DNA of 23,087 bases. Source: a virus. The stretch is from IMG/VR virus record IMGVR_UViG_3300028666_000107, positions 1-23,087 of that record. One strand, given 5' to 3'. The notes beneath the pieces are model-generated. The model did not search any database, was not told the DNA's origin, and worked only from the letters and a program-made list of their open reading frames with translations. Numbering within the stretch: the stretch's first letter is position 1; every line of letters begins with the position of its first letter. Shown here one piece after another: positions 1-23,017 of this stretch. A program made the position numbers and the translations under genes.

Positions 1-719
1 GCAAGCGTGGTGCTGTCATGGTTAATCAGCCAGGTGGTGTACAGCTTAAATACAAACCTGGTGATTTTAAAGTTAAGATTGAAACTACTGTTAACTTTAG
101 TCAGCAGCAACGTCAGGCGATGCAACAGATTACTTCTCTTATGCAAGTACCTATGGTTGGTCAGTTCGTATCTGAAACTAGTATTGATTTACTCTTTGAT
201 AACATTGATTGTCGTGATTCTGAAACATGGCGTGGACGTGCCGAGATATGGATGCAAGAGCAACAAAAAGCCAAACAAGCAGCTATGCAGCAAGCAGCAC
301 AACAACCTAAGATTGAACAACAAGCTATTCAAATTGCGGCTCAACAGGCACAAGCTGAAGCGCAAATGGGTATGGCTAAGATTGAGCAGCAAGCTATGTC
401 TGACAAAGCTAAGACTGCTATTGAGGTGGCTAAGCTTGAGCTTGAGCGTGAGAAACTACGTGTTGAATTGGCAAGATTAACTGCTGATATGCATGTGGAA
501 GAACAGAAATTAGGCATAGATCAACAACGTGCCGACGATGAAAGGGTGGAGCGAATTATTGATAATACAATCAAGCAAAGTGAGCACACCCACAATATTA
601 CAGGTCAACAATTTGAGAGAAGCTTAAGATCTATGGAAAGCGATCGTAATCATGAAATGGATAAAGCTTCTAGAGAAACTGAAAAGCTAGAGAAGCAAAC
701 CAAGGAAATAAGTGAATAA
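1..719 (+). CDS. Portal protein, C-terminal part (truncated by window edge)
   Basis: The reading frame is already open at base 3 and stops with TAA at 717-719, so only the C-terminal part of the protein (about 238 residues) is visible. The first ~70 residues (FKVKIETTVNFSQQQRQAM, then LLFDNIDCRDSETW) resemble the end of the stem/wing region of podovirus portal proteins. The rest is a long, uninterrupted Gln/Ala/Glu/Lys-rich helix (about residues 75-235), as in the C-terminal barrel or coiled coil of P22-type portals. In that family a dodecameric portal forms the DNA entry/exit vertex and docks terminase and the tail adaptor. The position directly before scaffold and coat genes supports the call. 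An ATG at 18 is internal and is not the true start. The main uncertainty is that the diagnostic portal core is outside the window. Confidence 0.78.
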   Translation, partial: KRGAVMVNQPGGVQLKYKPGDFKVKIETTVNFSQQQRQAMQQITSLMQVPMVGQFVSETSIDLLFDNIDCRDSETWRGRAEIWMQEQQKAKQAAMQQAAQQPKIEQQAIQIAAQQAQAEAQMGMAKIEQQAMSDKAKTAIEVAKLELEREKLRVELARLTADMHVEEQKLGIDQQRADDERVERIIDNTIKQSEHTHNITGQQFERSLRSMESDRNHEMDKASRETEKLEKQTKEISE

Positions 720-776
720 TTATTCAAAAAACTGTATAAATATTCACATTTACTTGATTAAACTGAATAATTATTC
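714..776. repeat. Two copies of a perfect 12-bp palindrome (possible operator pair)
   Basis: GAATAATTATTC occurs at 714-725 and again at 765-776, 51 bp apart, each preceded by T. It equals its own reverse complement. The first copy overlaps the portal stop codon. The second lies within the 17-bp spacer of a predicted promoter (-35 at 754-759, -10 at 777-782). This arrangement is typical of a dimeric regulator binding two sites, but no binding protein is identified here and the sequence is AT-rich. Confidence 0.5.
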
Positions 777-782
777 TATATT
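754..782 (+). promoter_or_regulatory. Predicted sigma70-type promoter for scaffold/coat transcription
   Basis: A -35 box TTGATT (754-759) is followed by a 17-bp spacer and a -10 box TATATT (777-782), matching four and five of six consensus positions. Transcription would be expected to start near 788-790, just before the tandem hairpin RNA and about 125 nt upstream of the scaffold start codon. A 12-bp palindrome fills positions 765-776 of the spacer, suggesting that a DNA-binding protein could control access to the promoter. This is inferred from sequence only. Confidence 0.55.
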
Positions 783-792
783 AAGAGTGCCA

Positions 793-886
793 GCAACCAG
801 AGCTGTTAATCTGGGGTAGACCTCATACGGAGGGTAAAAACGTGGGCAACTAGAGCCATAATCTAGGGCAGACCAGAGACACTGGG
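793..886 (+). ncRNA. Tandem two-hairpin structured leader RNA upstream of the scaffold gene
   Basis: Two units 53 nt apart share the layout GCAA - stem 1 - GGyAGA - stem 2 - G. In unit A (793-834) stem 1 is CCAGA/TCTGG (797-801 with 810-814) and stem 2 is CCTC/GAGG (821-824 with 830-833). In unit B (846-886) stem 1 is CTAGA/TCTAG (850-854 with 862-866) and stem 2 is CCAG/CTGG (873-876 with 882-885). Three of the nine base pairs differ between units by compensatory changes, while the joining sequences (GCAA, GGyAGA) and the loop-1 ends (GC...TAA) are conserved. That pattern indicates selection for RNA structure. Positions 820-824 (ACCTC) could also pair with GAGGT (901-905) at the scaffold ribosome binding site, suggesting translational control. 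No known riboswitch family was recognised. Confidence 0.6.
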
Positions 887-912
887 ATAATCAAGTCGAA
901 GAGGTATTTAAT

Positions 913-1572
913 ATGACAGATGGATTGAGTCAAAATCAGACTCCCGCTACAGCTACGCCTATTGAAAGTGAGAAGAAGTTTTCACAAGATGAGGTTAACT
1001 ACTTAATTAGCAAGGTGAAAGCCGAAGCTAAGCAGTCGGTACAACATCAGATAGAGGCAGCGCCTAAGCAAGATGTATCTTTGAAAGACATTGAAGAGTT
1101 GGTAGAGAAGCGTACTGAAGAGAAGATCAAATCGATTCAACAACAGTATGTAACATCGCAACAAGAGCAGGTTATGAAGCAGGCTGTTGATGCGCATTAC
1201 CAGACGATTAATTCTGCGAAGAAGATATATTCAGATTTTGATGAAGTTGTTGGCACTATTAATTTCGGCGAAAGTCCGGCTTTAATTCCTTTGATACAAT
1301 CAATGCCTAATAAAGAGGCGGTCATGTACCACCTAGGCAAAGAGGATGAGCGGTTTAATCAAATAAATTTTGCACTGCAAAGCAAGCAATATGCTAAGGC
1401 GGAGAGTTTAATGAAGAAATTTGCTGATTCTATTCAGAAGAACGAAGAGAAGGCTGCAGAAGCTAAAAAGACCATCCAACCTAAAGAACCATTGAGTCAA
1501 TTAAAACCTTCAACCACTGGTGTTGATGGTACATGGGACGTTAAGTCTTTAAAGAAGATGCTCAAACGTTAA
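913..1572 (+). CDS. Capsid scaffolding protein
   Basis: This 219-aa protein is hydrophilic and largely helical. A Pro/Thr-rich N-terminus is followed by charged coiled-coil-type sequence (about residues 20-100, EELVEKRTEEKIKSIQQQ), a more globular middle (about 105-165) and a lysine-rich C-terminus ending DVKSLKKMLKR. Scaffolding proteins of P22-like phages have the same design; the basic C-terminal helix-turn-helix binds the coat protein and directs procapsid assembly before the scaffold leaves. It sits between portal and coat genes, where P22 encodes gp8. P22 gp8 is about 303 aa, so this one is short. The start is ATG with AGAGG about seven bases upstream. The call rests on composition and position rather than clear residue homology. 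Confidence 0.75.
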   Translation: MTDGLSQNQTPATATPIESEKKFSQDEVNYLISKVKAEAKQSVQHQIEAAPKQDVSLKDIEELVEKRTEEKIKSIQQQYVTSQQEQVMKQAVDAHYQTINSAKKIYSDFDEVVGTINFGESPALIPLIQSMPNKEAVMYHLGKEDERFNQINFALQSKQYAKAESLMKKFADSIQKNEEKAAEAKKTIQPKEPLSQLKPSTTGVDGTWDVKSLKKMLKR

Positions 1573-1617: not shown

Positions 1618-2880
1618 ATGGCGATTTCTGCCGAGAATATTTTACAACAAGTTGTGACCTGGAACATGGTCGACTTAGCTGTGTTTCAAAACATGGCTTG
1701 CTTTGTATCAACTGCAAACACAATCATGAAGAACCCACAAGATTTCGCTGGAAACTTGGGTGCCTCGATTGCTTACGAACAACCACCACAACTTGTTTCA
1801 CAACAAGGTTTAGTGGTTAACTTTGAGCCTATCCAACAGAACTCACGTACTTTGACGGTTAATAACCAACAAAACGTATCGTATTCTGGTACTGCTGAAC
1901 AAATCATCTTTAACAACCTTGAAGAATATAGCAAACGCTTAGGGGATTCCTCTATGCAAGCTTTGGCTTCATATGTTGAATCTGACGTAGCTAGCCTATG
2001 TGAAAGCATTCCTTACCGTTTCTATGGTAATGGAACGACTCCCATTTCTAGCGCTCAACAATTAGCGCAAGCTATTGCTAACTTCCGCGCGTACTCTGCA
2101 CCTCCTGGTGGCTTAAAATGCTACCTAGATTTGCAAGCTGTACCTGCGATTGTTAATAGCATGCAAAATCAATTCACTTTAGAGCGTAATAATGAAAATG
2201 CTCAATCGTGGATGGTAGGAAATTGGGCCGGTGTCGATTATTATCAATCGAATTTACTAAAAGTCCATTTTTCAGGTTCCGTGGGTAACAATGGCGATAC
2301 TTTGACAGTTTTGTCGACAAATGACCCGACGGGCAACGCCATTTCTTCTATCACTTTGTCTGGTGCTAGTGTGTTTTCCGATCCAAATGCTATCAAAAAA
2401 TATGATATGGCTCAATTCTTGGCTGGTTCTTTCTTTGTAACCTACCAGAATTCATTGGCTACTGCATTGCCAACGCAAGTTTTGATTACCTCTGATGCTC
2501 CATCTGATATTTCTGGTAATGTTACTATTAACGTTTATCCAACGTTATGTGCAACTGTCGGTAGTATTGTGCAAAACATTAACACCAACATTGTGGCTGG
2601 CATGCAAATCAAATTGCTTCCTGACCATAAATGCGGTGCTTTAGTATCTGATAATGCTATGTACGTAGCAATGCCACCATTGCCAAGTACCTATCCTTTC
2701 CCAAGTGCGTCTGCAACTGACCCTGATACGCAAGTATCTGTACGTTTATATTACGGTGTTATTCCGTTCCAAAACGTATACGGTTGGACTCGTGACTGCG
2801 TATGGGGTAAAGATGGCGTGCCACAGAACTTTATGCGTATTGCGTTCCCAATCAACACCGGCAGCGGTATTGGTTTCTAA
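1618..2880 (+). CDS. Major capsid (coat) protein, P22 gp5-like
   Basis: At 420 aa this is close to P22 coat protein (430 aa) and sits directly after the scaffold gene. The N-terminus (AISAENILQQVVTWNMVDLA) resembles the N-terminal arm of P22-type coats. The middle (about residues 215-330) is rich in beta-strand and glycine and could correspond to the inserted domain P22 coat carries in its HK97 fold. The C-terminus (YYGVIPFQNVYGWTRDCVWG, then NFMRIAFP) gives the strand-rich ending expected. It should assemble as hexamers and pentamers around the scaffold to form the procapsid shell. The start is ATG with GGAG eight bases upstream. The codons look more uniform than those of the fibre genes, as expected for the most expressed gene. 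Confidence 0.85.
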   Translation: MAISAENILQQVVTWNMVDLAVFQNMACFVSTANTIMKNPQDFAGNLGASIAYEQPPQLVSQQGLVVNFEPIQQNSRTLTVNNQQNVSYSGTAEQIIFNNLEEYSKRLGDSSMQALASYVESDVASLCESIPYRFYGNGTTPISSAQQLAQAIANFRAYSAPPGGLKCYLDLQAVPAIVNSMQNQFTLERNNENAQSWMVGNWAGVDYYQSNLLKVHFSGSVGNNGDTLTVLSTNDPTGNAISSITLSGASVFSDPNAIKKYDMAQFLAGSFFVTYQNSLATALPTQVLITSDAPSDISGNVTINVYPTLCATVGSIVQNINTNIVAGMQIKLLPDHKCGALVSDNAMYVAMPPLPSTYPFPSASATDPDTQVSVRLYYGVIPFQNVYGWTRDCVWGKDGVPQNFMRIAFPINTGSGIGF

Positions 2881-2912: not shown

Positions 2913-2934
2913 TCTTGGCAAAGGAGCATAGTAT

Positions 2935-3660
2935 ATGACATATACAGCTAGGCAGCTCATCAATGATGCGTATTATCTTTCTGGGATAGTGGGCCAGTCA
3001 TTTGAGGAGGTATCAGGGTCGCAAATAGAGGTCGGATTAAACCGATTGAATGCGTTCTTGTCTATTAAAGGTGCCCAGACTGAGCTTATTCCTTACTATG
3101 ATATTTTTGAACAGCAGTTTGTTGCTGGACAAGAAAAGTATTTTATTCCCAATCTTGTCGAGCTTGATACTTTATCTTTTTATTTGACTAATAGTAACAA
3201 CGATCCTGTTACAGCAGTTCGTTTACCTATTGACCATTTAACGCGCTATCAGTATCTAAGTACGGCGAGACCCGAAGGCATTAATGCCATTCCTTTTAGC
3301 TACTACACCAATCGTGTATTAGGTGGGATGGATTTGTATGTGTATTTCTTGCCACAAATACCATATTTTTATCAGGTGTCAGGTAAGTTCGCATTACAGA
3401 CCACCTCATTAAACCAGGACTTATCCTTGGTATATGATGGTTGGTATATTGAGTATTTACGTTATGGACTGGCCATTTTGTTGTGCGAATGGTGGCAAGT
3501 GGTTCCAGCTGCTAGCTTGCAAAAACAAGCTGATGCGCTAGAGGATTTTAATATGACATTGGAGCCTATGGACTTCACTATTCGTACTAGACAGTATTTC
3601 AGGAACAAGGGTGGTCTGAACTGGGCTGATGTCAATTACGGAAAAGGCTGGAGGGGTTAA
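2935..3660 (+). CDS. Head-to-tail adaptor / tail accessory factor, P22 gp4-like
   Basis: This 241-aa protein starts MTYTARQLINDAYYLSGIVG and continues with EEVSGSQIEVGLNRLNAFLS. That is the helical N-terminal pattern of P22 gp4-like tail accessory factors, which bind beneath the portal as the first head-completion protein and prepare the site for gp10. The middle is beta-rich, and the C-terminal part (about residues 165-215) returns to helices (WYIEYLRYGLAILLCEWW). P22 gp4 is shorter (166 aa), so this is an extended member. An AAAGGAG SD lies about eight bases before the ATG. The position between coat and the gp10-like gene matches the P22 order. Confidence 0.68.
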   Translation: MTYTARQLINDAYYLSGIVGQSFEEVSGSQIEVGLNRLNAFLSIKGAQTELIPYYDIFEQQFVAGQEKYFIPNLVELDTLSFYLTNSNNDPVTAVRLPIDHLTRYQYLSTARPEGINAIPFSYYTNRVLGGMDLYVYFLPQIPYFYQVSGKFALQTTSLNQDLSLVYDGWYIEYLRYGLAILLCEWWQVVPAASLQKQADALEDFNMTLEPMDFTIRTRQYFRNKGGLNWADVNYGKGWRG

Positions 3661-5563: not shown

Positions 5564-6226
5564 ATGGCAGATTGGTATAATCCTTTTAGCTGGGGCAGCG
5601 ATCCATATGGTGATGCCCAGAAGTATTTGGGTCAATATGAGCAAATATTGAATCAGGCTTACGATCCATATATCGAATACGGCATGCGAGCTATGCCCAC
5701 GCTTGAAGAGCAATATGCGTTACTTTTGAGCAATCCAGCGGCTGTACAGGCAATGTTGGGGCAGGGATTTGAAGAGTCTCCTGGGTATGAATTTCAAATG
5801 GATCAAGCAATGAACGCCTCTAATCAAGCGGCTTCTGCTGGCGGTATGTTAGGTACTCCGAGTCATACGCAACAATCTATGGGCGTGGCTCAAGGTTTAG
5901 CTGCTCAAGATTACTGGAACTACTATAATCAGAATGCGAGCTTGTATAATCAAGGGTTGACGGGTACACAAGGTCAGTTTGATACTGGCTTTAATGCGAC
6001 TAATCAGAAACAGGGTGCTATGGGTAATTTGTATGGCTCTAAGGCTAATCTTGCGAATGCTCAAGGTCAGAGTCAGCAGAATATGTTTTCTAGTTTGTTA
6101 GGGGCTGGAATTGGAGCTGCCGGATATGCATTTGGTGGGCCTGCTGGCGGAGCGGCAACAAGTGGAATATACAATTTAGCAGATCCTAATGCGCAAGCAT
6201 ATTGGTATGGGTACGGTACAAGGTAA
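5564..6226 (+). CDS. Probable DNA-ejection (internal virion) protein, P22 gp7 position
   Basis: This 220-aa protein is rich in Gln, Ala, Gly and Tyr. It has an N-terminal ADWYNPFSWGSDPYGDAQKY segment, then a conserved-looking block SPGYEFQMDQAMNASNQAA followed by GGMLGTPSHTQQ (about residues 73-105). That block recurs in internal or DNA-transfer proteins of many podoviruses. Near the C-terminus a small-residue stretch (LLGAGIGAAGYAFGGPAGG, about 178-197) could insert into membrane. In P22, gp7, gp20 and gp16 leave the capsid before DNA and help it cross the cell envelope. This gene is first of three in that position. The start is ATG with GGGGTG upstream. Confidence 0.62.
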   Translation: MADWYNPFSWGSDPYGDAQKYLGQYEQILNQAYDPYIEYGMRAMPTLEEQYALLLSNPAAVQAMLGQGFEESPGYEFQMDQAMNASNQAASAGGMLGTPSHTQQSMGVAQGLAAQDYWNYYNQNASLYNQGLTGTQGQFDTGFNATNQKQGAMGNLYGSKANLANAQGQSQQNMFSSLLGAGIGAAGYAFGGPAGGAATSGIYNLADPNAQAYWYGYGTR

Positions 6227-6232
6227 TAAAAT

Positions 6233-7105
6233 ATGGCTAGTTTTCCTTATATGCAATTTCAGCCAACGAATCCGTTAGACACGGCCATAAAGACTGCTAT
6301 GGAAGTTTATAGCGTTCCGGCTCAGCGATCTCAACAACAGGCACAAACATCTCTCCTTCAGCAACAAGCTGAAAAAGAAAGAATGATTGTACAGCTTTTG
6401 GGCGGAGCTACTGGCGGAATGAATGGCGGTCCTTCCGAAGGGATGGGTAAATCAGGTTCAGGTGTTTCTTCTGGTGCATTTGGAGGAAATACGGAGATTC
6501 AAGATCAATTATTGAGACAAATGCTTGGCTTGCCTTCTGAGTTTCCAGGAGAAAGGACACGAAGGGAAAGAGAAACTCATCAAGCAAATAGTATTTTCAA
6601 TAAAGATGTTGAAAAGAAATTGGGTACTTCTGGAAGTATTACGCAAAAGCAAAATATGTCTTTAGGTGCAGATTTAACAATACCACTTTTAGATCAATTA
6701 ATTGATTTGGAAGTTCCAGGCCAAGTAATTGGAAAAACATTTTCGCCTAATGTTCAGGCAGAATATCAAGGATTAGTTTCAAATATTGTGGATAAAGTTC
6801 TTAAAGGTATGGATTTAACCTCAAGCGAAGAGAATACTCGTAGTGTTAGAAAAATGGTAGAACGTCAACCGTTTGAAAATGAAGAATCATACAAAAATAG
6901 GTTAAGAGACCTTAAAGAAGAAATGTTTTTCATTAAAGATGTGACTTCGAGTGGACAACCTAACCATGGCGGCCAATCAAATAATCATGGCCAACAATCA
7001 AAAAATTCTGGCAAGGTAAGAATACAGGCTCCTGATGGAACTATTCGTATGGTTCCCAGCGCTCTCGTAGATGCTGCGTTAAAAGCAGGAGGTAAACGTG
7101 CCTGA
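6233..7105 (+). CDS. Probable DNA-ejection (internal virion) protein, P22 gp20 position
   Basis: This 290-aa hydrophilic protein starts just after the preceding gene. Residues 30-50 are Gln-rich helix (RSQQQAQTSLLQQQAEKERM), followed by a Gly/Ser-rich linker (about 57-85). A charged, helical central part follows (about 95-235) and then a Gln/Asn/Gly-rich stretch. The C-terminus ends in a basic tail (KAGGKRA). No catalytic motif was seen. The middle position of a three-gene set between neck and fibre genes matches P22 gene 20, whose product is ejected with the DNA. The assignment is by context. Its last eight bases overlap the next gene. Confidence 0.55.
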   Translation: MASFPYMQFQPTNPLDTAIKTAMEVYSVPAQRSQQQAQTSLLQQQAEKERMIVQLLGGATGGMNGGPSEGMGKSGSGVSSGAFGGNTEIQDQLLRQMLGLPSEFPGERTRRERETHQANSIFNKDVEKKLGTSGSITQKQNMSLGADLTIPLLDQLIDLEVPGQVIGKTFSPNVQAEYQGLVSNIVDKVLKGMDLTSSEENTRSVRKMVERQPFENEESYKNRLRDLKEEMFFIKDVTSSGQPNHGGQSNNHGQQSKNSGKVRIQAPDGTIRMVPSALVDAALKAGGKRA

Positions 7106-11632: not shown

Positions 11633-13924
11633 ATGACGACACCAAATTCAGGGCCAATTAGTCAGTTACCAGTAGCTACGTCCATTAATACTGGAATGAT
11701 GGTTCCTTGTGATAATCCATTGGTTTTGCCTTATGGTCAAACTCAGAAATTTACTATATCGCAATTAACAGATTATTTTTCAGTAAATCTTTTGCAAAGT
11801 AATATTTTGAGCGCTATTGCTGCAACTACAGGAAACTTAAATGCAGCCTATATTAATGGTAATAATGGAGTGGGAGCTACTTTAATTAATGTGGGTGCAT
11901 TAGGGGCATTGATAATTGATGGCGTAACAATGCAGGTTGGTAATAGAGTATTGGTATCTCAGCAATCTATATCTTATCAAAATGGAGTTTATGTAGTTAC
12001 GGCTATAGGAAGTGTAGCGATACCTTGGGTTTTAACTAGGGCATCAGATTATGACAATCACATTCCTGGGCAAATTGATCAGGGTGATTTTATTGGTATT
12101 TTATTTGGCACCACTAATGCTTTAACCTGGTGGTTTATGGTATCTCCTAATCCTGTTACGGTAGGTGTTACCCCTATTGTGTTTGAGCGTCAGGGTAGTG
12201 GAGATTTTCCTTTTACCCAAGTGCAATTTGTTGCCAAGGGTGGTAATGATGCTAATGCCGGAAATCTTATGGGGGCGCCTAAATTAACAATCCAAGCTGC
12301 TATTAATGCCCTCGGATTAAGTCCATCTGTAACCGGGTTAGTCTGGGTTTTAGATAGTGGTTCTTATGATGAAAGTTTAACTTCCACATATAGCTTTGAA
12401 TTATATGCTCCTAATGCTCAGATTATTAGCAATGGCGGGGATTTATTAACCATTAATAATTCTGGTATTAATACCATTACAACTATTACATGCTGGCAGT
12501 TTGGTAAGTTTAGTCCAGGAGGATTGGCGGTAAATCTTTTGGGCGCTCAATCTAATTTGTTCTTGAATGCCAAAATAATTCAAGGCGACATGTATATTGA
12601 AGGTGGATTTGTTGATGGTAATATTGCTCAAGTAGCATCAAATGTTCACGTTGCTTCTACCGGACAATTTGGCCCAACTATATTTAATGCGATATTTCTT
12701 ACACTAACTGTTGATGCTGGTGGAACTGTTGCTGGAAATATTCAGCAAATTATTGGCCCGGGAAATGTTGTTAATGACCAGTATGGTAATCAAATTATTC
12801 ATGGAAGTTTAAATATTAATAATGCTTATACATTACCAACTATTGATGCATCATCTAATGGTTATGTTTTAAGTAGAACAGCTCCAGGTGTTGTGGCATG
12901 GCAACCTGTATCTGCCGATATTCCTTTTAATGACATAGAAATATTTGTTTCTCAAACCATAGGAAATGACGCAAATTCCGGCAGTTATTTAGCCCCTTTG
13001 GCAACATTCGGTGCGGCAATTACCTTGGCATCTGCTCATGCTGGATGTATAATTATCGGCTTAGATGACGCTACATATAATGAGAATTTGTTACAAAATA
13101 CTGATTTTAATATTTATGCACCTTTAGCTTCATTGATTCCTTCCTCTGGTGATGCAATAACTGTTAATGATTATTCATTTAATCCAAGCATTACATTTAA
13201 AAACATCAGAATATCTTCTGGAAGCTGTTTAAATCTTAATGGTGGCGGCCCAAGTGGCAGCGTATATTTATATGCAGACACAATTGATGGGTCTGCTGGT
13301 GCGGCTGTATATAATGGTGAAAATGGAAATTGTTATATTAATTGCAATGTTTTAAATGGAATATTATTGACTGGTGGTTCTGGATTTAATTATTACGAAA
13401 CTAAGACGAGAAGTGGAACAGATTCAAGTCAAACACTTGGAATAAGTGTTTCTGGGTCAACGTCTCCAATATGGACGGTTCCAAGTATTGCTTTCAATCC
13501 AACAACTCAAGGTATTGTCGGAACAACTGTTGCTGATAATGCATCATCTGGTTATGTGGGAGAATTTATTTCTAGTGTTGTTTCTTCTGGATCTGCTGTT
13601 TCTATCCCTGACGATACAGATGTTGATGTTACATCTATTGCTTTAACAGCAGGAGATTGGGATATACATGGTAATGTGTACTTTATTGATGCTGGAAACT
13701 TTATACGAGGTGTTGCATGGTGTAGCACTACATCGTCTTCTATGCCTGATAAATCTTTAACCAATCAAATAGCGATTGCTGCAAATACTTCTGAGCAGGG
13801 TATTTCGACTCCATATTTAAGGGTTAATGTTTCATCACCTACAACAGTATATTTGAGTTGTCATGCTGTATTTTCATCCACGATGGGCGTTTGTGGCGGT
13901 ATTTATGCAAGAAGAGTTAGATAA
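11633..13924 (+). CDS. Tail fibre/tailspike with two beta-helix-type modules
   Basis: This 763-aa protein has an N-terminal domain (about residues 55-185, including NGVGATLINVG, NRVLVSQQSISYQNGVYVVT and PWVLTRASDYDNH) found repeatedly in phage fibre proteins. Two related modules follow, opening with GNDANAG (204-210) and GNDANSG (444-450). Each is followed ~55 residues later by a YAP...GD..T.N motif, consistent with the first coils of a right-handed parallel beta-helix as in tailspikes. The C-terminal ~125 residues (SGSAVSIPDDTDVDVTSIAL to GGIYARRV) resemble a common fibre tip domain. It is likely a trimeric receptor-binding or glycan-binding protein; no depolymerase active site could be assigned by eye. 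Confidence 0.75.
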   Translation: MTTPNSGPISQLPVATSINTGMMVPCDNPLVLPYGQTQKFTISQLTDYFSVNLLQSNILSAIAATTGNLNAAYINGNNGVGATLINVGALGALIIDGVTMQVGNRVLVSQQSISYQNGVYVVTAIGSVAIPWVLTRASDYDNHIPGQIDQGDFIGILFGTTNALTWWFMVSPNPVTVGVTPIVFERQGSGDFPFTQVQFVAKGGNDANAGNLMGAPKLTIQAAINALGLSPSVTGLVWVLDSGSYDESLTSTYSFELYAPNAQIISNGGDLLTINNSGINTITTITCWQFGKFSPGGLAVNLLGAQSNLFLNAKIIQGDMYIEGGFVDGNIAQVASNVHVASTGQFGPTIFNAIFLTLTVDAGGTVAGNIQQIIGPGNVVNDQYGNQIIHGSLNINNAYTLPTIDASSNGYVLSRTAPGVVAWQPVSADIPFNDIEIFVSQTIGNDANSGSYLAPLATFGAAITLASAHAGCIIIGLDDATYNENLLQNTDFNIYAPLASLIPSSGDAITVNDYSFNPSITFKNIRISSGSCLNLNGGGPSGSVYLYADTIDGSAGAAVYNGENGNCYINCNVLNGILLTGGSGFNYYETKTRSGTDSSQTLGISVSGSTSPIWTVPSIAFNPTTQGIVGTTVADNASSGYVGEFISSVVSSGSAVSIPDDTDVDVTSIALTAGDWDIHGNVYFIDAGNFIRGVAWCSTTSSSMPDKSLTNQIAIAANTSEQGISTPYLRVNVSSPTTVYLSCHAVFSSTMGVCGGIYARRVR

Positions 13925-13945
13925 TTTATTTAAAGGGAGAAGCGA

Positions 13946-15154
13946 ATGCGCGCTAATTGGAATGTTTGGGAAATTGGAACTGTTGGAAATAATCCGACCA
14001 TTTGGAAGTTAGATTCTACAGATGATGAAGCTACAATTACCTCAAGTAGTTATGCTTTAGATCCCGCAATAAAAGCAGGTGATTTAGTTCTTGCATCTTA
14101 TTCCGCCAATGGTGGCCGTACAAGTGGAACTTTTTCCGTGGTTAGCAATGGTCGTCATTTGATGCTTCAGAATGCTGGAAATGTATTCACATTTTTTAAT
14201 ACTTTATATTTTGCCGTTGGCGGAAATGACGCTAATCCTGGAACAAATATCAATCAGCCTTTGGCTACTCTTGGAAAAGCAGTTGAAATTGCAAAAACAT
14301 TAATTGCGGCTGGAACTCCAGGTTCTACTTTTGTGTCTATTGAAGGATTAGGAATAGGTATTGATGTAAGTAACATTTCAATTGTTGGTTTTAATCAGGC
14401 TAATGGTATTTATATTAATGCCCCTGGCTGGCAGCTTAATCCAGTAAGTGGCGATGCATTAACTGTAGATTTATCAGGCGGCCCTTTTGACCCCAATGGC
14501 GGATCATACATTAACGTAGTTTTGGCTAGATCTACAGTAGCAGGTGGCGCTAAAGTTTTAAATTTAATCGGCACGACTGCCGGTCATCGAAATGTTACTA
14601 GATTTACATATGCGGGCGCGGTATATGGAGATGTATATCTAAATGTTCCTGCCGAATTTTATTGCACAATTATCGCGGGTACTTTAACTGCAAATCAATC
14701 AGGAACCAATGTTGTTACTCAATATGGAATAGGTAGTCAAACCGATCAATCCCGTTTAAATCTGGAAGGAATGTTATTCGGGGGAGGTGGTGTCTCTATC
14801 CATGGACCGGTAAATACGACAAATGTCTGGCGCTATCCAATGCGTAAGATTGTGTATCTTTCTGGAGATAAAACTTTAGGGTTTTCAGATTCCGGTTATC
14901 TATATGTTAATAATACGGCAAGCACATATACAATTACTTTACCGGATACAACTGGTCAAGGTACGCCCGCATTTCTAACTGGTTACGAAGCTACATTTTT
15001 AAATTATGGCAGTGGAGCTATTAATTTTTCAGCAGGTGGAGTTGCTTCTATTATTGGAACTACCTCTGTAGCTGCTGTAGCAAGAAGAGTAAATTGCACA
15101 TTAACTGAAGCAAATACGTGGGTTATTGATACCTATCCTGGTACTGGGCCTTAA
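13946..15154 (+). CDS. Tail fibre/tailspike-like protein with one beta-helix-type module
   Basis: This 402-aa protein has a short N-terminal domain (residues 1-85; AGDLVLASYSANGG, then TFSVVSNGRH) that resembles the N-termini of the next two genes. A module opening with GNDANPG (93-99) and PLATLGKAVEIA follows, with INAPGWQL...SGDALTVDLSG further on. This is the same two-motif layout as in the neighbouring gene, consistent with a right-handed beta-helix. The C-terminal part (about 300-402) is beta-rich and ends ANTWVIDTYPGTGP. It is preceded by AAGGGAG. It may be an additional receptor-binding protein acting with, or attached to, the neighbouring fibres; this role is inferred from context and domain likeness. 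Confidence 0.72.
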   Translation: MRANWNVWEIGTVGNNPTIWKLDSTDDEATITSSSYALDPAIKAGDLVLASYSANGGRTSGTFSVVSNGRHLMLQNAGNVFTFFNTLYFAVGGNDANPGTNINQPLATLGKAVEIAKTLIAAGTPGSTFVSIEGLGIGIDVSNISIVGFNQANGIYINAPGWQLNPVSGDALTVDLSGGPFDPNGGSYINVVLARSTVAGGAKVLNLIGTTAGHRNVTRFTYAGAVYGDVYLNVPAEFYCTIIAGTLTANQSGTNVVTQYGIGSQTDQSRLNLEGMLFGGGGVSIHGPVNTTNVWRYPMRKIVYLSGDKTLGFSDSGYLYVNNTASTYTITLPDTTGQGTPAFLTGYEATFLNYGSGAINFSAGGVASIIGTTSVAAVARRVNCTLTEANTWVIDTYPGTGP

Positions 15155-15178
15155 GTCTAATTTTATAGGAGAATTTAT

Positions 15179-16633
15179 ATGACAGTTTCAAGTTTAAACA
15201 AATTAAATATTGGTCTAGTAGGTATATCCCCAGGCTTATTATTTTTACAAACAAATTTAACAAATATTCAACTTCAAGTTCCCGGAGCATTAAATTCAAT
15301 AGTTGGGGCGTCCGGTGTCAGTGTTAATAATGGCGATGCTTTGATAGCAAACGCACAAGACGGGGGAGAATATTATACTGTTATTGTTGCGGCCAATGGA
15401 CAGATTACACTGAAGGCTGCTGGTGGAATTATTCCTGAGGGATTTAAATATCAAAATACATATTGGCTAGCAAAGAATGGTAACGATGCAAATGATGGTT
15501 TATCTATTGATTCTCCATTATTAACTCTTGCCGCATTACAGGCTAAATTGGTTGCTGGTGTCACAACTGTTTTAAATATCGTTGATGATGGGGTTTACGT
15601 TGTATCCAGCACATTTACTGTTCCTTGCGCATTATTAATTAATGCACCCGGTGCAACTATTCATTGGACTGGCTCCCCCGGCGGTATAATGTTCGCGTTA
15701 AATGTTAATTCACCAGTAGTTTCGAATATAGGATTAATAAGTGCCTCGAATGCTTTATCTATATTTAGAGGCTTTTCTTCATGCGTGTTAACAGGCCCAA
15801 GCGGGTTTTGTAGGATTATAAGTAATGCCGGCGTTAGAGCATGGGAAGATGCTAATACTATATCAGGTGGCGTAAATCCGGCGATATTTAATATTAATAC
15901 AGATAGATTCGGTGCAGATTTCTTATTTGCCTTTGCAGGTACTCAAATTGTTAATGCTATTAGTCTTGGCGATGGTAATATTAGCAGCCAATTACCTAGC
16001 GGTGTAGGCAACGGGGTTTGTAAAATCAATGCCAATTTCTGGAATGGCGTAGCTAGTGGCACCGCAGATTTTTCTATCGATCTTAATCATGCAGGTAGCA
16101 GCTTTGGGTTTACTTCATCAGGTGTACTTAATCTTAATGTAGCTACATCTGATTTAGATCTAACTACCATCCCTTTTAACGGCTTGGTAAGCTCAAACCC
16201 AATTAATCCTGCTTATCCAGAAAATTTATTTAATAATCCTTTATATTTTTTCCAGCAGCCTATTATCGGAGAATTGTATAGCATTATTTATGAGGCTCCT
16301 GCTTCACCTACCGTATGGTCTTTTACTCCAGGTGTGCAAAATGGTAATACCCAAATTTCTATTCCGCGAAATGCGGCTAATGGATCAATTACAATTCCTG
16401 CGGGTTCTAGTGTTCCCTATGGATGGAGAATACACTATCAACAAACAGTTGGAAGTGGTGCAAGGGTGCAAATTTTCCCCGGAAGTAATGACACTTTAAA
16501 CGGTCAAAATAGCATCGGCCCAGGTGCAACATCTTGCTTTACCGGTATCGGTACAGGTAAATTTGTAAGAGGTGCTGCAAACGGTGGCGGTGGGTTTGAT
16601 TGGGCAGTAGAAAACTGTTACACAAGTAATTGA
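15179..16633 (+). CDS. Tail fibre/tailspike-like protein, paralogue of the next gene
   Basis: This 484-aa protein has an N-terminal ~80-residue domain (GLVGISPGLLFLQTNL, then GDALIANAQDGGEYYTVIV) clearly related to that of the next gene. A module begins GNDANDG (101-107) with PLLTLAALQ and INAPGATIHW, again the beta-helix layout. The C-terminal ~120 residues (SIPRNAANGSITIPAGSSVP to FDWAVENCY) differ from all neighbours, as expected if the receptor-contact end diverges or is exchanged while the anchor is kept. An AGGAG SD lies nine bases before the ATG. It is interpreted as one member of a serial fibre array. Confidence 0.72.
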   Translation: MTVSSLNKLNIGLVGISPGLLFLQTNLTNIQLQVPGALNSIVGASGVSVNNGDALIANAQDGGEYYTVIVAANGQITLKAAGGIIPEGFKYQNTYWLAKNGNDANDGLSIDSPLLTLAALQAKLVAGVTTVLNIVDDGVYVVSSTFTVPCALLINAPGATIHWTGSPGGIMFALNVNSPVVSNIGLISASNALSIFRGFSSCVLTGPSGFCRIISNAGVRAWEDANTISGGVNPAIFNINTDRFGADFLFAFAGTQIVNAISLGDGNISSQLPSGVGNGVCKINANFWNGVASGTADFSIDLNHAGSSFGFTSSGVLNLNVATSDLDLTTIPFNGLVSSNPINPAYPENLFNNPLYFFQQPIIGELYSIIYEAPASPTVWSFTPGVQNGNTQISIPRNAANGSITIPAGSSVPYGWRIHYQQTVGSGARVQIFPGSNDTLNGQNSIGPGATSCFTGIGTGKFVRGAANGGGGFDWAVENCYTSN

Positions 16634-16657
16634 TAATAAATAATAGGGAAATGTCTT

Positions 16658-18424
16658 ATGGCAATTACAAATTCATTAGTAAGATTGAGCGTTGGGATTG
16701 TGGGTGTTGAACCCGGTATTCTTTTGTTAAAAACAAGTTTATCAAGTTCTCAAATTTTAGTTCCTGGATATTTAAACCAGGTTGCACAATCTTATGGAAT
16801 TAGTGTATTGCCATCTGATGTTTTAATTGCCAATTGCAGCAATGGAAGTGGTTATTATACGCTATCTGTTAATGGTACTGGCATAATTACTATTGCTAGA
16901 GATATGGCTGATATTTCATTTAATGGAATACAGATTTATGTTTCCAAGCAGATTGGTAATGATGGAAATGACGGAAGTTTAACTAATCCTCTGGCTACTT
17001 TTAATGCTGCTATAGCTCGTGCTGGGTCCCCAGCTACTCCAGTTCAAATTATTGCTTTAGATGGTGCAACGTATAATGAGCAATTAGTTCTTGATACATC
17101 GTATATTTGGATTAATTCTCCCTTGGCGAGCATACAATATACTGGAGCTGGGGATGCAATTACTGTTACTGCGACAGGTGCTGGATTTCCAATAATTTTA
17201 GCTCAAATAGGTGCTTCGAGCGGAAATGCTATAGTTAATACATCTAGTGAGTTTGTTATTGTTAGAGCTGGATCTCTATTAAATGGCGATATTGTTAACC
17301 AAGGCTCTGCTGGCGCAGTTATAGTTACAGCTGAAATAGTAGGTGTTAATTTTACAAACACATCAACTGGATCTATATATTACAGCATTATTGCTAGAGT
17401 TGGCGGCATAGATAGCGCTGGTGTAACTGGAATTAGTGCAACATCTGCTACCGGTCCATTTTCTATTGGCGGTATATCTTATCCTATTGGCCCCACAACA
17501 ACAGGCTATGTATTAACTGCAAGCGGTCCAAATTCAGCTGCTTTCTCTCCTGGTGGTGGAGGTGGTTTAACCCCAATAGCATCAGATACATTACTATCTA
17601 ACATTACTGGTTCTTCTGCGATACCCGTAGGAAATACATTATCAGCTATTTTGGATGCATCATTTGATAATTCACAAGGTGATATTCTTTATCGTGGTGC
17701 TGGTGGATGGACGTTTTTAGCACCAGGAACAGAGGGTCAAGCATTGATAACTGGTGGGGCGGCTGCGAATCCAGCATGGGAAAGTGGTACAGATCAAACA
17801 TGGACTGTAGGCAGTAATATTACCTCTAACACTGGAGATATTATATCTACCACAGGTGCTCTTGTTTCGGGCAACAGTACTAATAATTTAACGATTAGAT
17901 GGACATCTAATAGCTCTAATGTAGTATCAACCTTAACAAATCAACCATCAAATTTTGCCAATGAATGGGTTTTGCCTCATTTGGCATTTAGTCCTGTCAC
18001 ATTGTTGGCGGCCAATCTTACCCAAGTAGATCCAATGTCAAATCTCATTTATTTTGACACTACCGTTCCTGCTATCGCTTTAGTAGGTGGGGCATCTTTT
18101 CCTATCGCCAATAGCTACTATGGCGGCCTATATAGGGTTAGAGATTTAAAAATTAACCTTACCCCAACTAATTTTAGTGGCGGAGACAGAGATTTATTAA
18201 TTACCGATGGCTCAACGCAATACAGCATCATTCCTGCTGCAACTCTTCAAGCACTATCAAATTCATTGTGGGGTTCTGTTGCCCTACCTCCTCCAGCAAC
18301 AACAGGATGGAATACCATAACGGCGTTTTCAGGGGTTGATTTGAGCGCTACTTATATTAATGGCACAACGGATTATGCAGCTGGTTCTATTACAATTACC
18401 GTCGCATGGGAAAAAGTATCTTAA
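16658..18424 (+). CDS. Tail fibre/tailspike-like protein with fibre tip domain
   Basis: This 588-aa protein shares its N-terminal domain with the previous gene (GIVGVEPGILLLKTSL, then SDVLIANCSNGSGYYTLSV). A module starts GNDGNDG (100-106), with PLATFNAAIARA and NSPLASIQYTGAGDAITV. A central segment (GDILYRGAGGWTFLAPGTEG, then ANPAWESGTDQTW, about 345-390) is a recurring linker of phage fibres. The last ~130 residues (LKINLTPTNFSGGDRDLLIT, then QYSIIPAATLQALSNSLWG) match a common fibre C-terminal domain. It lies 24 bases after the preceding gene and is the most complete anchor-module-tip arrangement of the paralogous set. Confidence 0.75.
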   Translation: MAITNSLVRLSVGIVGVEPGILLLKTSLSSSQILVPGYLNQVAQSYGISVLPSDVLIANCSNGSGYYTLSVNGTGIITIARDMADISFNGIQIYVSKQIGNDGNDGSLTNPLATFNAAIARAGSPATPVQIIALDGATYNEQLVLDTSYIWINSPLASIQYTGAGDAITVTATGAGFPIILAQIGASSGNAIVNTSSEFVIVRAGSLLNGDIVNQGSAGAVIVTAEIVGVNFTNTSTGSIYYSIIARVGGIDSAGVTGISATSATGPFSIGGISYPIGPTTTGYVLTASGPNSAAFSPGGGGGLTPIASDTLLSNITGSSAIPVGNTLSAILDASFDNSQGDILYRGAGGWTFLAPGTEGQALITGGAAANPAWESGTDQTWTVGSNITSNTGDIISTTGALVSGNSTNNLTIRWTSNSSNVVSTLTNQPSNFANEWVLPHLAFSPVTLLAANLTQVDPMSNLIYFDTTVPAIALVGGASFPIANSYYGGLYRVRDLKINLTPTNFSGGDRDLLITDGSTQYSIIPAATLQALSNSLWGSVALPPPATTGWNTITAFSGVDLSATYINGTTDYAAGSITITVAWEKVS

Positions 18425-21757: not shown

Positions 21758-22090
21758 TTAACCGGAACCGGAACCATAACCGGAACCATAACCGGAACCA
21801 TAACCGGAACCGTCACCGTAACCATAACCGGAACCGGAACCATAACCGGAACCGTCACCGTAACCATAACCGGAACCGTCACCGGAACCGGAACCATAAC
21901 CGGAACCATAACCGGAACCGTCACCGTAACCATAACCGGAACCGTCACCGGAATTGGAACCATAACCGGAACCATAACCGGAACCGTCACCGTAACCATA
22001 ACCGGAACCGTCACCGGAACCATAACCGGAACCGTCACCGGAACCGGAACCTATCTTTATGATCGTTGGGACAATCAATTTTTTACTCAT
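21758..22090 (-). CDS. Gly-alternating low-complexity protein (GSGYGDG type)
   Basis: This 110-aa protein has a 13-residue unique start (MSKKLIVPTIIKI) and then Gly at nearly every second residue to the end, alternating with Ser, Tyr or Asp. A higher-order unit of 22 residues (66 bp; starting GDGSGYGYGDGSGYG) recurs three times, the last copy shortened. One Gly-to-Asn change breaks the pattern. Gly uses GGT throughout and Ser uses TCC. It begins directly after the stop of the DUF6948-like gene (TAA then ATG) with only a weak SD (GGGAA), so translation is probably coupled. No function is known; a flexible or self-associating protein is possible. The other frames through the repeat also stay open but lack a proper start context. 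Confidence 0.6.
   Translation of the reverse strand: MSKKLIVPTIIKIGSGSGDGSGYGSGDGSGYGYGDGSGYGSGYGSNSGDGSGYGYGDGSGYGSGYGSGSGDGSGYGYGDGSGYGSGSGYGYGDGSGYGSGYGSGYGSGSG
21761..22051. repeat. Hexanucleotide-based tandem repeat array 1 (ACCGGA/ACCATA type)
   Basis: About 290 bp consist of six-base units beginning ACC on the plus strand (ACCGGA, ACCATA, ACCGTC, ACCGTA), grouped into a 66-bp higher-order period. All units stay in phase with the leftward Gly-rich gene. Replication slippage is the likely means of growth, so copy number may vary between isolates or assemblies. Confidence 0.9.
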
Positions 22091-22393
22091 TTATTGTTCC
22101 CATATCTTTACTTTCTTGATTGATGCTTCTGCCTCTATTGTTATAGGAATAATTTCTATCCAATTAGATAAAATAACTTCGTTTACTTCTCTAGGAAATT
22201 TACATTCCTTAGGATTGCTCGTTCCTTCCATTGCTAATTGCGATAAAGATGCCGCTCCCTCCCAACGCCAAATACGTCGAGCATTTTTCAATCTCACTAT
22301 TTTATTCACAATATCAATCTCTTCAATATATCCAGCAAACACACCAGCTGAATATGTTCTTACCATGTAATATTGTTCTGCTAAAAATTCCAT
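22091..22393 (-). CDS. DUF6948-like protein, copy 1
   Basis: This 100-aa protein reads MEFLAEQYYMVRTYSAGVFA, then ARRIWRWEGAASLSQLAMEG, KECKFPREV and EIIPITIEAEASIKKVKIW. It aligns along its whole length with the protein encoded at 22721-23017 (RT..SGVFA, SRRLWYWDGAASLSELSQEG, ENCKFPMSV, EVIPMTEKAITSIKNVKIW). The pattern fits the DUF6948 family of small phage proteins of unknown function. The conserved aromatic/charged core (RRIWRWEGA) looks like an interaction surface. An AAGGAG SD lies 11 bases before the ATG, slightly far. It is followed without a gap by a Gly-alternating gene, as is its paralogue. Confidence 0.75.
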   Translation of the reverse strand: MEFLAEQYYMVRTYSAGVFAGYIEEIDIVNKIVRLKNARRIWRWEGAASLSQLAMEGTSNPKECKFPREVNEVILSNWIEIIPITIEAEASIKKVKIWEQ

Positions 22394-22430
22394 TCTATTC
22401 TATTCTCCTTATCATATTGTGATCTTGTTA

Positions 22431-22703
22431 GCCGGTGCCGTCGCCGGTGCCGGTGCCGCTGCCGCTGCCGTCGCCGTAGCCGTAGCCGCTGCCGTCGCCG
22501 GTGCCGGTGCCGCTGCCGTCGCCGTAGCGTTAGCCGTCGCCGTCGCCGGTGCCGGTGCCGCTGCCGTCGCCGTAGCCGTAGCCGTATCCGTCGCCGTAGC
22601 CGTAGCCGCTGCCGGTGCCGCTGCCGTCGCCGTAGCCGTATCCGTCGCCGGTGCCGGTGCCGCTGCCGTCGCCGTAGCCGTAGCCGTATCCGTCGCCGTA
22701 GCC
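22431..22703. repeat. GC-rich tandem repeat array 2 (GCCGGT/GCCGTA/GCCGTC type)
   Basis: About 270 bp of six-base units beginning GCC on the plus strand (GCCGGT, GCCGCT, GCCGTC, GCCGTA) stand out from the AT-rich surroundings. In-phase translation leftward again gives Gly at every second residue, with Asp, Tyr, Ser and Thr between. A longer period of about 102 bp (34 residues) is visible. Base composition and codons differ from array 1 although the encoded pattern is alike. Confidence 0.9.
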
Positions 22704-22724
22704 GCGATCTATGACATTATTCAT
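22530..22724 (-). CDS. Gly-alternating low-complexity protein, copy 2, with early stop
   Basis: The 64-aa product starts MNNVIDRGYGDGYGYGYGDG and continues with Gly at every second position. It ends at TAA (22532-22530), where the repeat reads GCGTTAGCC instead of the expected GCCGTAGCC. In the same frame the repeat continues for another 33 codons to a second TAA at 22430-22428, mirroring the stop position of copy 1. The ancestral protein was therefore probably about 98 aa, and this copy is truncated or carries a sequencing error. The start overlaps the upstream stop (ATGA) and has GGAG six bases upstream. Gly codons are mostly GGC and Ser is AGC. The function is unknown. Confidence 0.55.
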   Translation of the reverse strand: MNNVIDRGYGDGYGYGYGDGSGTGTGDGYGYGDGSGTGSGYGYGDGYGYGYGDGSGTGTGDGDG

Positions 22725-23017
22725 TTACCACTCCATATTTTTACGTTCTTAATTGAAGTAATTGCTTTCTCAGTCATAGGAATTACCTCAATGACAAGAT
22801 AGGCAATATGTTCTGGTACTGACATTGGAAATTTACAATTTTCTGGCTTATTCACACCTTCTTGTGATAGTTCAGATAGAGATGCGGCGCCATCCCAATA
22901 CCATAAACGTCTAGAATCTTTAAGTATATATTTTCTTGTTACATCATCAAAATTTTTAATTTGAGCTGCAAATACACCACTTTTTTCTGTTCTAATCACA
23001 TAATACTTTTCTTTCAT
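22721..23017 (-). CDS. DUF6948-like protein, copy 2
   Basis: This 98-aa protein begins MKEKYYVIRTEKSGVFAAQI and contains SRRLWYWDGAASLSELSQEG, KPENCKFP and EVIPMTEKAITSIKNVKIW. It is a full-length paralogue of the gene at 22091-22393, with blocks spaced alike. The start is ATG with AAGGGG six bases upstream. It overlaps the following Gly-alternating gene by four bases (ATGA). The pairing of a DUF6948-like gene with a Gly-repeat gene therefore occurs twice in a row, which suggests a duplicated two-gene unit with a joint function that remains unknown. Confidence 0.75.
   Translation of the reverse strand: MKEKYYVIRTEKSGVFAAQIKNFDDVTRKYILKDSRRLWYWDGAASLSELSQEGVNKPENCKFPMSVPEHIAYLVIEVIPMTEKAITSIKNVKIWSGK

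Follow-up and report, generated by a model that had tools for sequence, protein, structure and literature searches.

The free scaffolding protein of phage P22 acts as a repressor at the post-transcriptional level. That P22 scaffold regulates its own gene goes back to Wyckoff & Casjens (1985; cited in PMC5744158), and this regulation together with the gene order portal-scaffold-coat-gp4-gp10 makes P22 comparable to the locus described here. However, in P22 the portal gene and the scaffold gene (gene 8) are 13 nt apart, and a leader like the present one is absent. In phage T4, gp32 recognises the 5'-terminal pseudoknot of its own mRNA, and this pseudoknot nucleates autogenous repression (PMC535899). 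The gene 32 operator of T4 and RB69 is similar to our leader in that it places an H-type pseudoknot in the mRNA leader, ahead of the Shine-Dalgarno sequence (SD) of a phage gene, but it has a single pseudoknot with an unstructured, UUAAA-rich stretch behind it that covers the SD, and it belongs to T4-like phages (PMC535899), whereas the leader described here has four predicted pseudoknots in two modules, the last of them 0-4 nt from the SD, stands before a scaffold gene and has a putative binder. Pseudoknots repeated in tandem are also found in the STAXI RNA (RF01728), which however occurs in Enterobacteriales near DNA-handling genes, has UUCG tetraloops and contains one kind of pseudoknot (PMC2864571); no leader matched RF01728 at the gathering threshold. 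ToxI and the known phage-borne cases (pseudo-ToxI) likewise consist of tandem H-type pseudoknots, but as 36-nt near-identical repeats that lie next to a toxin gene or within an escape locus and not in an mRNA leader (PMC3475682). Where ToxI has near-identical repeats by a ToxN-like toxin/terminator, each of the four helices differs between the present units, and scaffold follows them.

The DNA analysed (the window) is the complete 23,087-base IMG/VR virus record IMGVR_UViG_3300028666_000107, which is a contig of a P22-like podophage. Its left half is in P22 gene order (portal C-terminus, scaffold, coat, a gene in the gp4 position, an Hc3/gp10-like gene, ejection), with 193 bases between portal and scaffold. 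The features of this region are listed below; helices S1 and S2 form pseudoknot A and helices P3 and S4 form pseudoknot B of each predicted unit.

18 to 719, plus strand: portal protein gene, C-terminal part, 5' of the leader (phrog_156, E 3.1e-7)
754 to 782, plus strand: promoter-like site TTGATT-17-TATATT, its -10 ending 8 nt before the first pseudoknot strand
789 to 843, plus strand: predicted unit 1, pseudoknots A and B (relatives, pairing tests)
791 to 814, plus strand: predicted unit 1 pseudoknot A; S1 CAGC 791-794/GCTG 802-805, S2 CCAGA 797-801/TCTGG 810-814, L1 AA, L3 TTAA (sequence; S1 and S2 covary in relatives)
821 to 843, plus strand: predicted unit 1 pseudoknot B; P3 CCTC 821-824/GAGG 830-833, S4 ACG 827-829/CGT 841-843 (sequence; S4 covaries)
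845 to 897, plus strand: predicted unit 2, pseudoknots A and B (relatives, pairing tests)
845 to 866, plus strand: predicted unit 2 pseudoknot A; S1 GGC 845-847/GCC 855-857, S2 CTAGA 850-854/TCTAG 862-866
873 to 897, plus strand: predicted unit 2 pseudoknot B; P3 CCAG 873-876/CTGG 882-885, S4 GAC 878-880/GTC 895-897
899 to 904, plus strand: Shine-Dalgarno AAGAGG of the scaffold gene (sequence)
913 to 1572, plus strand: scaffolding protein gene, 219 aa (phrog_8865 head scaffolding protein, E 5.7e-8; alignments A3 and A11)
1618 to 2880, plus strand: P22-like major capsid protein gene, 420 aa (phrog_283, E 2.3e-17)

Elsewhere in the window, four successive fibre-like genes (11633-18424) have a GGNDANxG...PLATxxxAI segment in common and are apparently duplicated. 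Low-complexity coding repeats of the GSGDGSGYGYGDG type at 21758-22802 flank two DUF6948 paralogues on the minus strand (22091-22393 and 22721-23017).

Predicted fold of the scaffold leader

A preliminary description of this DNA had reported a tandem, covarying two-hairpin RNA at 789-905. All letters and positions that it gave for this region were present in the sequence, including GCAA at 793-796 and 846-849 (53 nt apart), GGTAGA (815-820) and GGCAGA (867-872) between the stems, and stem 1 and stem 2 in both copies, with three of nine pairs differing on both sides. The hairpin stems proved real, but plain hairpins they are not: because loops 1 and 2 are complementary to flanking bases in the window as well as in its relatives, each unit before the window scaffold gene is read as two consecutive H-type pseudoknots, of each of which a hairpin is one half. 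In pseudoknot A the loop of hairpin 1 pairs with the bases directly 5' of the hairpin (S1), and in pseudoknot B the pairing partner of the hairpin-2 loop lies 3' of its hairpin (S4). The GC in loop 1, described before as a conserved single-stranded block, is present in both copies but forms the 3' strand of the predicted S1. Relatives showed complementarity with other letters, such as CGCG/CGCG, CGCT/AGCG, TTGTG/CACAA and AGGC/GCCT in S1 and GTTG/CAAC, GTCA/TGAC, ACTA/TAGT and TGAAT/ATTCA in S4. The two window units abut, with S4 of unit 1 ending 1 nt before S1 of unit 2, and the S4 strand of unit 2 ends 1 nt before the SD.

The folding energy of the isolated units could not be distinguished from that of shuffled sequences (z -0.5 and -1.1), so that the two window units are no proof by themselves and a comparison of relatives was needed to decide. 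A promoter scan of the window alone found the site at 754-782 to be no more than chance expectation. In all six type I leaders (the window group, see below) that were measured, the spacing from -10 to S1 was 8-9 nt, and the transcript would therefore start at the fold, at about position 789. No U-tract terminator was found in the leader, which disfavours attenuation. As the loop-1 arms resemble anticodon arms, a tRNA-like fragment was considered, but it was ruled out, there being no match to a tRNA or tRNA relic by ARAGORN or Rfam.

The earlier proposal of an on/off switch, in which ACCTC (820-824) pairs with GAGGT (901-905) around the ribosome binding site, did not survive comparison. The letters are there, but the pairing is not conserved: the unit-1 stem-2 strand and the SD scored 71.5 within their own leader and 70.9 in exchanged leaders, using seven SD segments of which one (L013) was taken from a wrong start.

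Some variation of the leader was seen among individual loci. L006 (2260-2340) carries a unit 2 with a hairpin-like insert (TTGC-GCAA-GCAA) in which the S2 helix is not obvious. The scaffold leaders of L139, L198 and L211 have at least three modules with extra hairpins between pseudoknots A and B. A third-subtype leader with S4 touching the SD (AACAGTGAGG) is present in L290 (IMGVR_UViG_2660238140_000001), which has an isolate-like identifier.

Covariation and occurrence among related viruses

Coat-protein relatives with 59-70% identity were found at 14 viral loci, and every one of these loci that reaches far enough upstream has a window-like leader before the scaffold gene, while the scaffold proteins are only 32-38% identical to that of the window. 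Searches with Hc3 and scaffold profiles yielded many further loci. Of about 54 non-redundant loci in which this region was readable, nearly all had the leader before scaffold, down to a scaffold identity of 22%, and altogether it is carried by over a hundred related bacterial viruses, mostly uncultured.

Two types of unit can be told apart. Type I units, as in the window, have 3-5 bp in S1 and 3-4 bp in P3; type II units, which are more common, have 2 bp in S1 and a P3 of the CCG type. Both types are alike in order, spacing, S4 geometry and gene context, and the locus L075 is intermediate, with S1 TGGC/GCCA together with GAC/GTC. Since the covariance model of 27 type II units (R1) gives no score to the window units, the link between the types rests on position, architecture and such intermediates, from which common descent appears likely. 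The distance from promoter to unit is longer and variable in type II.

Judged by comparison of aligned sequences, covariation is seen in each of the helices S1, S2, P3 and S4, and controls with shuffled mates or slid partners fail. In type I, pairing of own versus exchanged strands was 141 versus 77 for S1 and 129 versus 103 for S4 (P<5e-5). In type II, 34 of 34 units paired in S1 at a fixed offset (shuffle P<5e-5), including GT/AC and AG/CT in place of CG/CG, and 93 of 99 cells were paired in S4. All the tests in this paragraph are to be read with type II S1 being just 2 bp, shuffles ignoring phylogeny and seeds picked by eye. A larger set gave 153 of 158 paired for S1 (shuffled 117). For S4, 48 units chosen without regard to S4 sequence had 137 of 144 pairs (shuffled mean 104), and the upstream pseudoknot B, likewise anchored without S4, had 105 of 108 variable pairs (shuffled mean 81). 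Pair counts in gapless alignments showed 97-98% of cells paired, with covariation of 0.55 against 0.21 and 0.49 against 0.18 for shuffled versions; none of 500 shuffles reached the observed values, and covariation fell to 0-0.18 when partners were slid. Among non-Watson-Crick cells on the coding strand G-U was commoner than A-C, which hints weakly at selection on the sense RNA. A generic scanner for short pseudoknots did not discriminate in the last 62 nt, about half of shuffles and coat-gene leaders scoring too; short complementarity alone is therefore no evidence, and only anchored and covariation tests were used.

Three pattern scans using only the RNA and blind to proteins, run over 2.9 million viral contigs, gave 153 matches, of which 145 lay directly before a scaffold gene; the three match sets overlap in contigs. 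Singly, 82 of 88, 16 of 18 and 47 of 47 matches were directly before scaffold as recognised by profile, mostly with coat next. Six of the eight other matches are within 100 nt of a contig end, the one in L263 is not recognised by the model, and the one in L280 is unexplained. This last match (L280:3678-3699, minus strand) fits the pattern of the upstream pseudoknot B without a scaffold gene downstream and may be chance or a stray copy. Over 765 kb, the 51 matches of R1 were all in sense orientation and clustered just 5' of scaffold, and the window-group model (R2) found the window-group leaders and elsewhere nothing below E 0.2. In 34 whole records, R1 detected no more than a single copy or two adjacent ones in each phage, save for one additional weak match (E 0.3) in a MAG, and no further significant copy was found by R1 on 31 virus contigs of 10-44 kb or by R2 on the window. 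A first DNA pattern scan returned window-group leaders and chance matches in genes, and nothing else.

This comparison establishes the fold, strand and place of the predicted RNA and its exclusive link to scaffold. The preliminary description of a selected tandem RNA in the scaffold/capsid leader is borne out in this respect, as the same paired unit precedes scaffold in divergent relatives, its stems are kept there, covariation is far above controls and model and pattern matches are concentrated directly before scaffold genes.

Several relatives showed peculiarities nearby. Opposite-strand tRNA genes lie just 5' of the scaffold promoter and leader in L013 (2823-3055) and L015 (2913-2983). The coat gene of L113 contains a group I intron (2934-3145; Rfam RF00028, 80.8 bits) around which the coat ORF is split, and the coat ORF of L186 is split in a similar way. 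In L009 an HNH-endonuclease-like gene (6131-6787) is located between the gp4-position gene and Hc3 and is absent there in the near-identical L007.

The leader matched no known RNA family, as had been suspected: no Rfam 15 covariance model scored above gathering in the window, 6 window-group loci or 17 wide-family loci, and under relaxed settings the Rfam matches to the leader were weak and at chance level. Among GenBank phages, queries with coat and with the leader found no relative carrying the leader, and a coat alignment against genome contigs gave no match. Cultured relatives with a distant Hc3 homologue (VvAW1, Vibrio 1.211, Rhodoferax P26218) have no leader, or no room for one. A published description was not found in a non-exhaustive literature search. 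We regard the leader as a new RNA family, defined by comparative analysis and with a putative function; it has been unannotated so far because its carriers are almost all uncultured.

Possible functions of the leader

The leader may well be a translational operator for the synthesis of scaffold and the coupled coat, a reading that we prefer but hold tentatively. Its most likely binder would be free scaffolding protein (autogenous control), followed by coat or a different head protein. In a large group of P22-like podophages, the scaffold-coat mRNA would start (at about position 789 in the window) as a structured 5' leader, which would fold into two head-to-tail modules of two H-type pseudoknots each, with the last S4 1 nt from the SD. 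A protein bound to the folded SD-proximal pseudoknot and stabilising it would block loading of the 30S subunit, and synthesis of scaffold and coat would drop; once the binder is consumed in procapsids, translation would resume. Transcription from the promoter, translational action, repression over activation and the identity of the binder are what we infer here. In 60 of 71 leaders, an SD-like tetramer follows the S4 strand of the last unit at a distance of 0-4 nt. This position, the near invariance of the SD-proximal pseudoknot B and the restriction to a single gene speak for a specific binder that would control translation initiation, and the gene 32 pseudoknot of T4 is a precedent for an autogenous operator of this kind in a phage. 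The autoregulation of P22 scaffold suggests free scaffold as a possible binder, but as P22 is this precedent, its lack of a leader counts against an operator, as does the lack of one in the cultured relatives with an Hc3 homologue. The leader is kept although scaffold proteins diverge to 22-38% identity. No recognised RNA-binding domain was found in the scaffold, and its profile had no relative among solved structures.

A stabilising or activating role would give the same sequence picture as repression. With no ligand involved, the pseudoknots might leave the SD accessible and shield the scaffold-coat mRNA against 5'-end-dependent decay, which would suit an abundant coat mRNA and the window group, where -10 ends so close to S1 that the fold would be 5'-terminal. 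We consider such a stabiliser or translation enhancer rather unlikely, given the longer and variable promoter distance of type II, the lack of another significant copy although other phage operons should be served too, and the near-invariant SD-proximal pseudoknot B, which suggests specific recognition. An operator with the same anatomy could also answer to coat, which directly follows scaffold in nearly all loci, to portal, to an early protein delaying head assembly or to a host RNA-binding protein; that the RNA always adjoins scaffold itself makes this somewhat less probable still.

Tandem pseudoknot modules beside an SD, with conserved unpaired A and G positions in the consensus, would also be expected of a riboswitch, a possibility raised in the preliminary description. 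Its tandem aptamers would bind a small molecule, for instance a nucleotide that reports on host state or on DNA replication, and would thereby set the translation of scaffold. This is improbable: nothing pointed to a metabolite ligand, none of the RNA-only matches preceded a metabolic or transport gene, nearly all of them preceding scaffold, and helices and loops of the upstream pseudoknot B vary freely. Control by an assembly protein fits this restriction better. The put sites of HK022 are likewise adjacent structured units at an operon start, and the two adjoining units with which a late operon opens here might serve antitermination or another kind of transcript processing. Yet put sites act far from start codons, the last S4 here ends beside the SD, and the leader is without terminator, so that we give this very little credence. 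A phage can mimic ToxI, a tandem pseudoknot RNA (PMC3475682), and the leader might be such a decoy antitoxin of type III toxin-antitoxin systems against abortive infection, but ToxI repeats are near-identical 36-nt copies, whereas the window units differ and end at the SD, and the leader is almost never found apart from scaffold; this explanation appears the most far-fetched.

The leaders might represent an undescribed class, namely double-pseudoknot arrays dedicated to the scaffold gene that read free scaffold (or coat) and couple capsid-protein synthesis to assembly in a large, uncultured group of P22-like phages, although we put this forward with slightly more reserve. A compact multi-pseudoknot RNA is conserved across very divergent phages before one gene, and its natural variants are a ready set for testing. 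In viral dark matter, covariance models of the leader would flag scaffold genes, whose sequences otherwise make them difficult to identify. The leader may provide a concrete cis-element for an old question, namely how scaffold production in a phage is kept in step with the assembly of heads, which is known in P22 without such an element.
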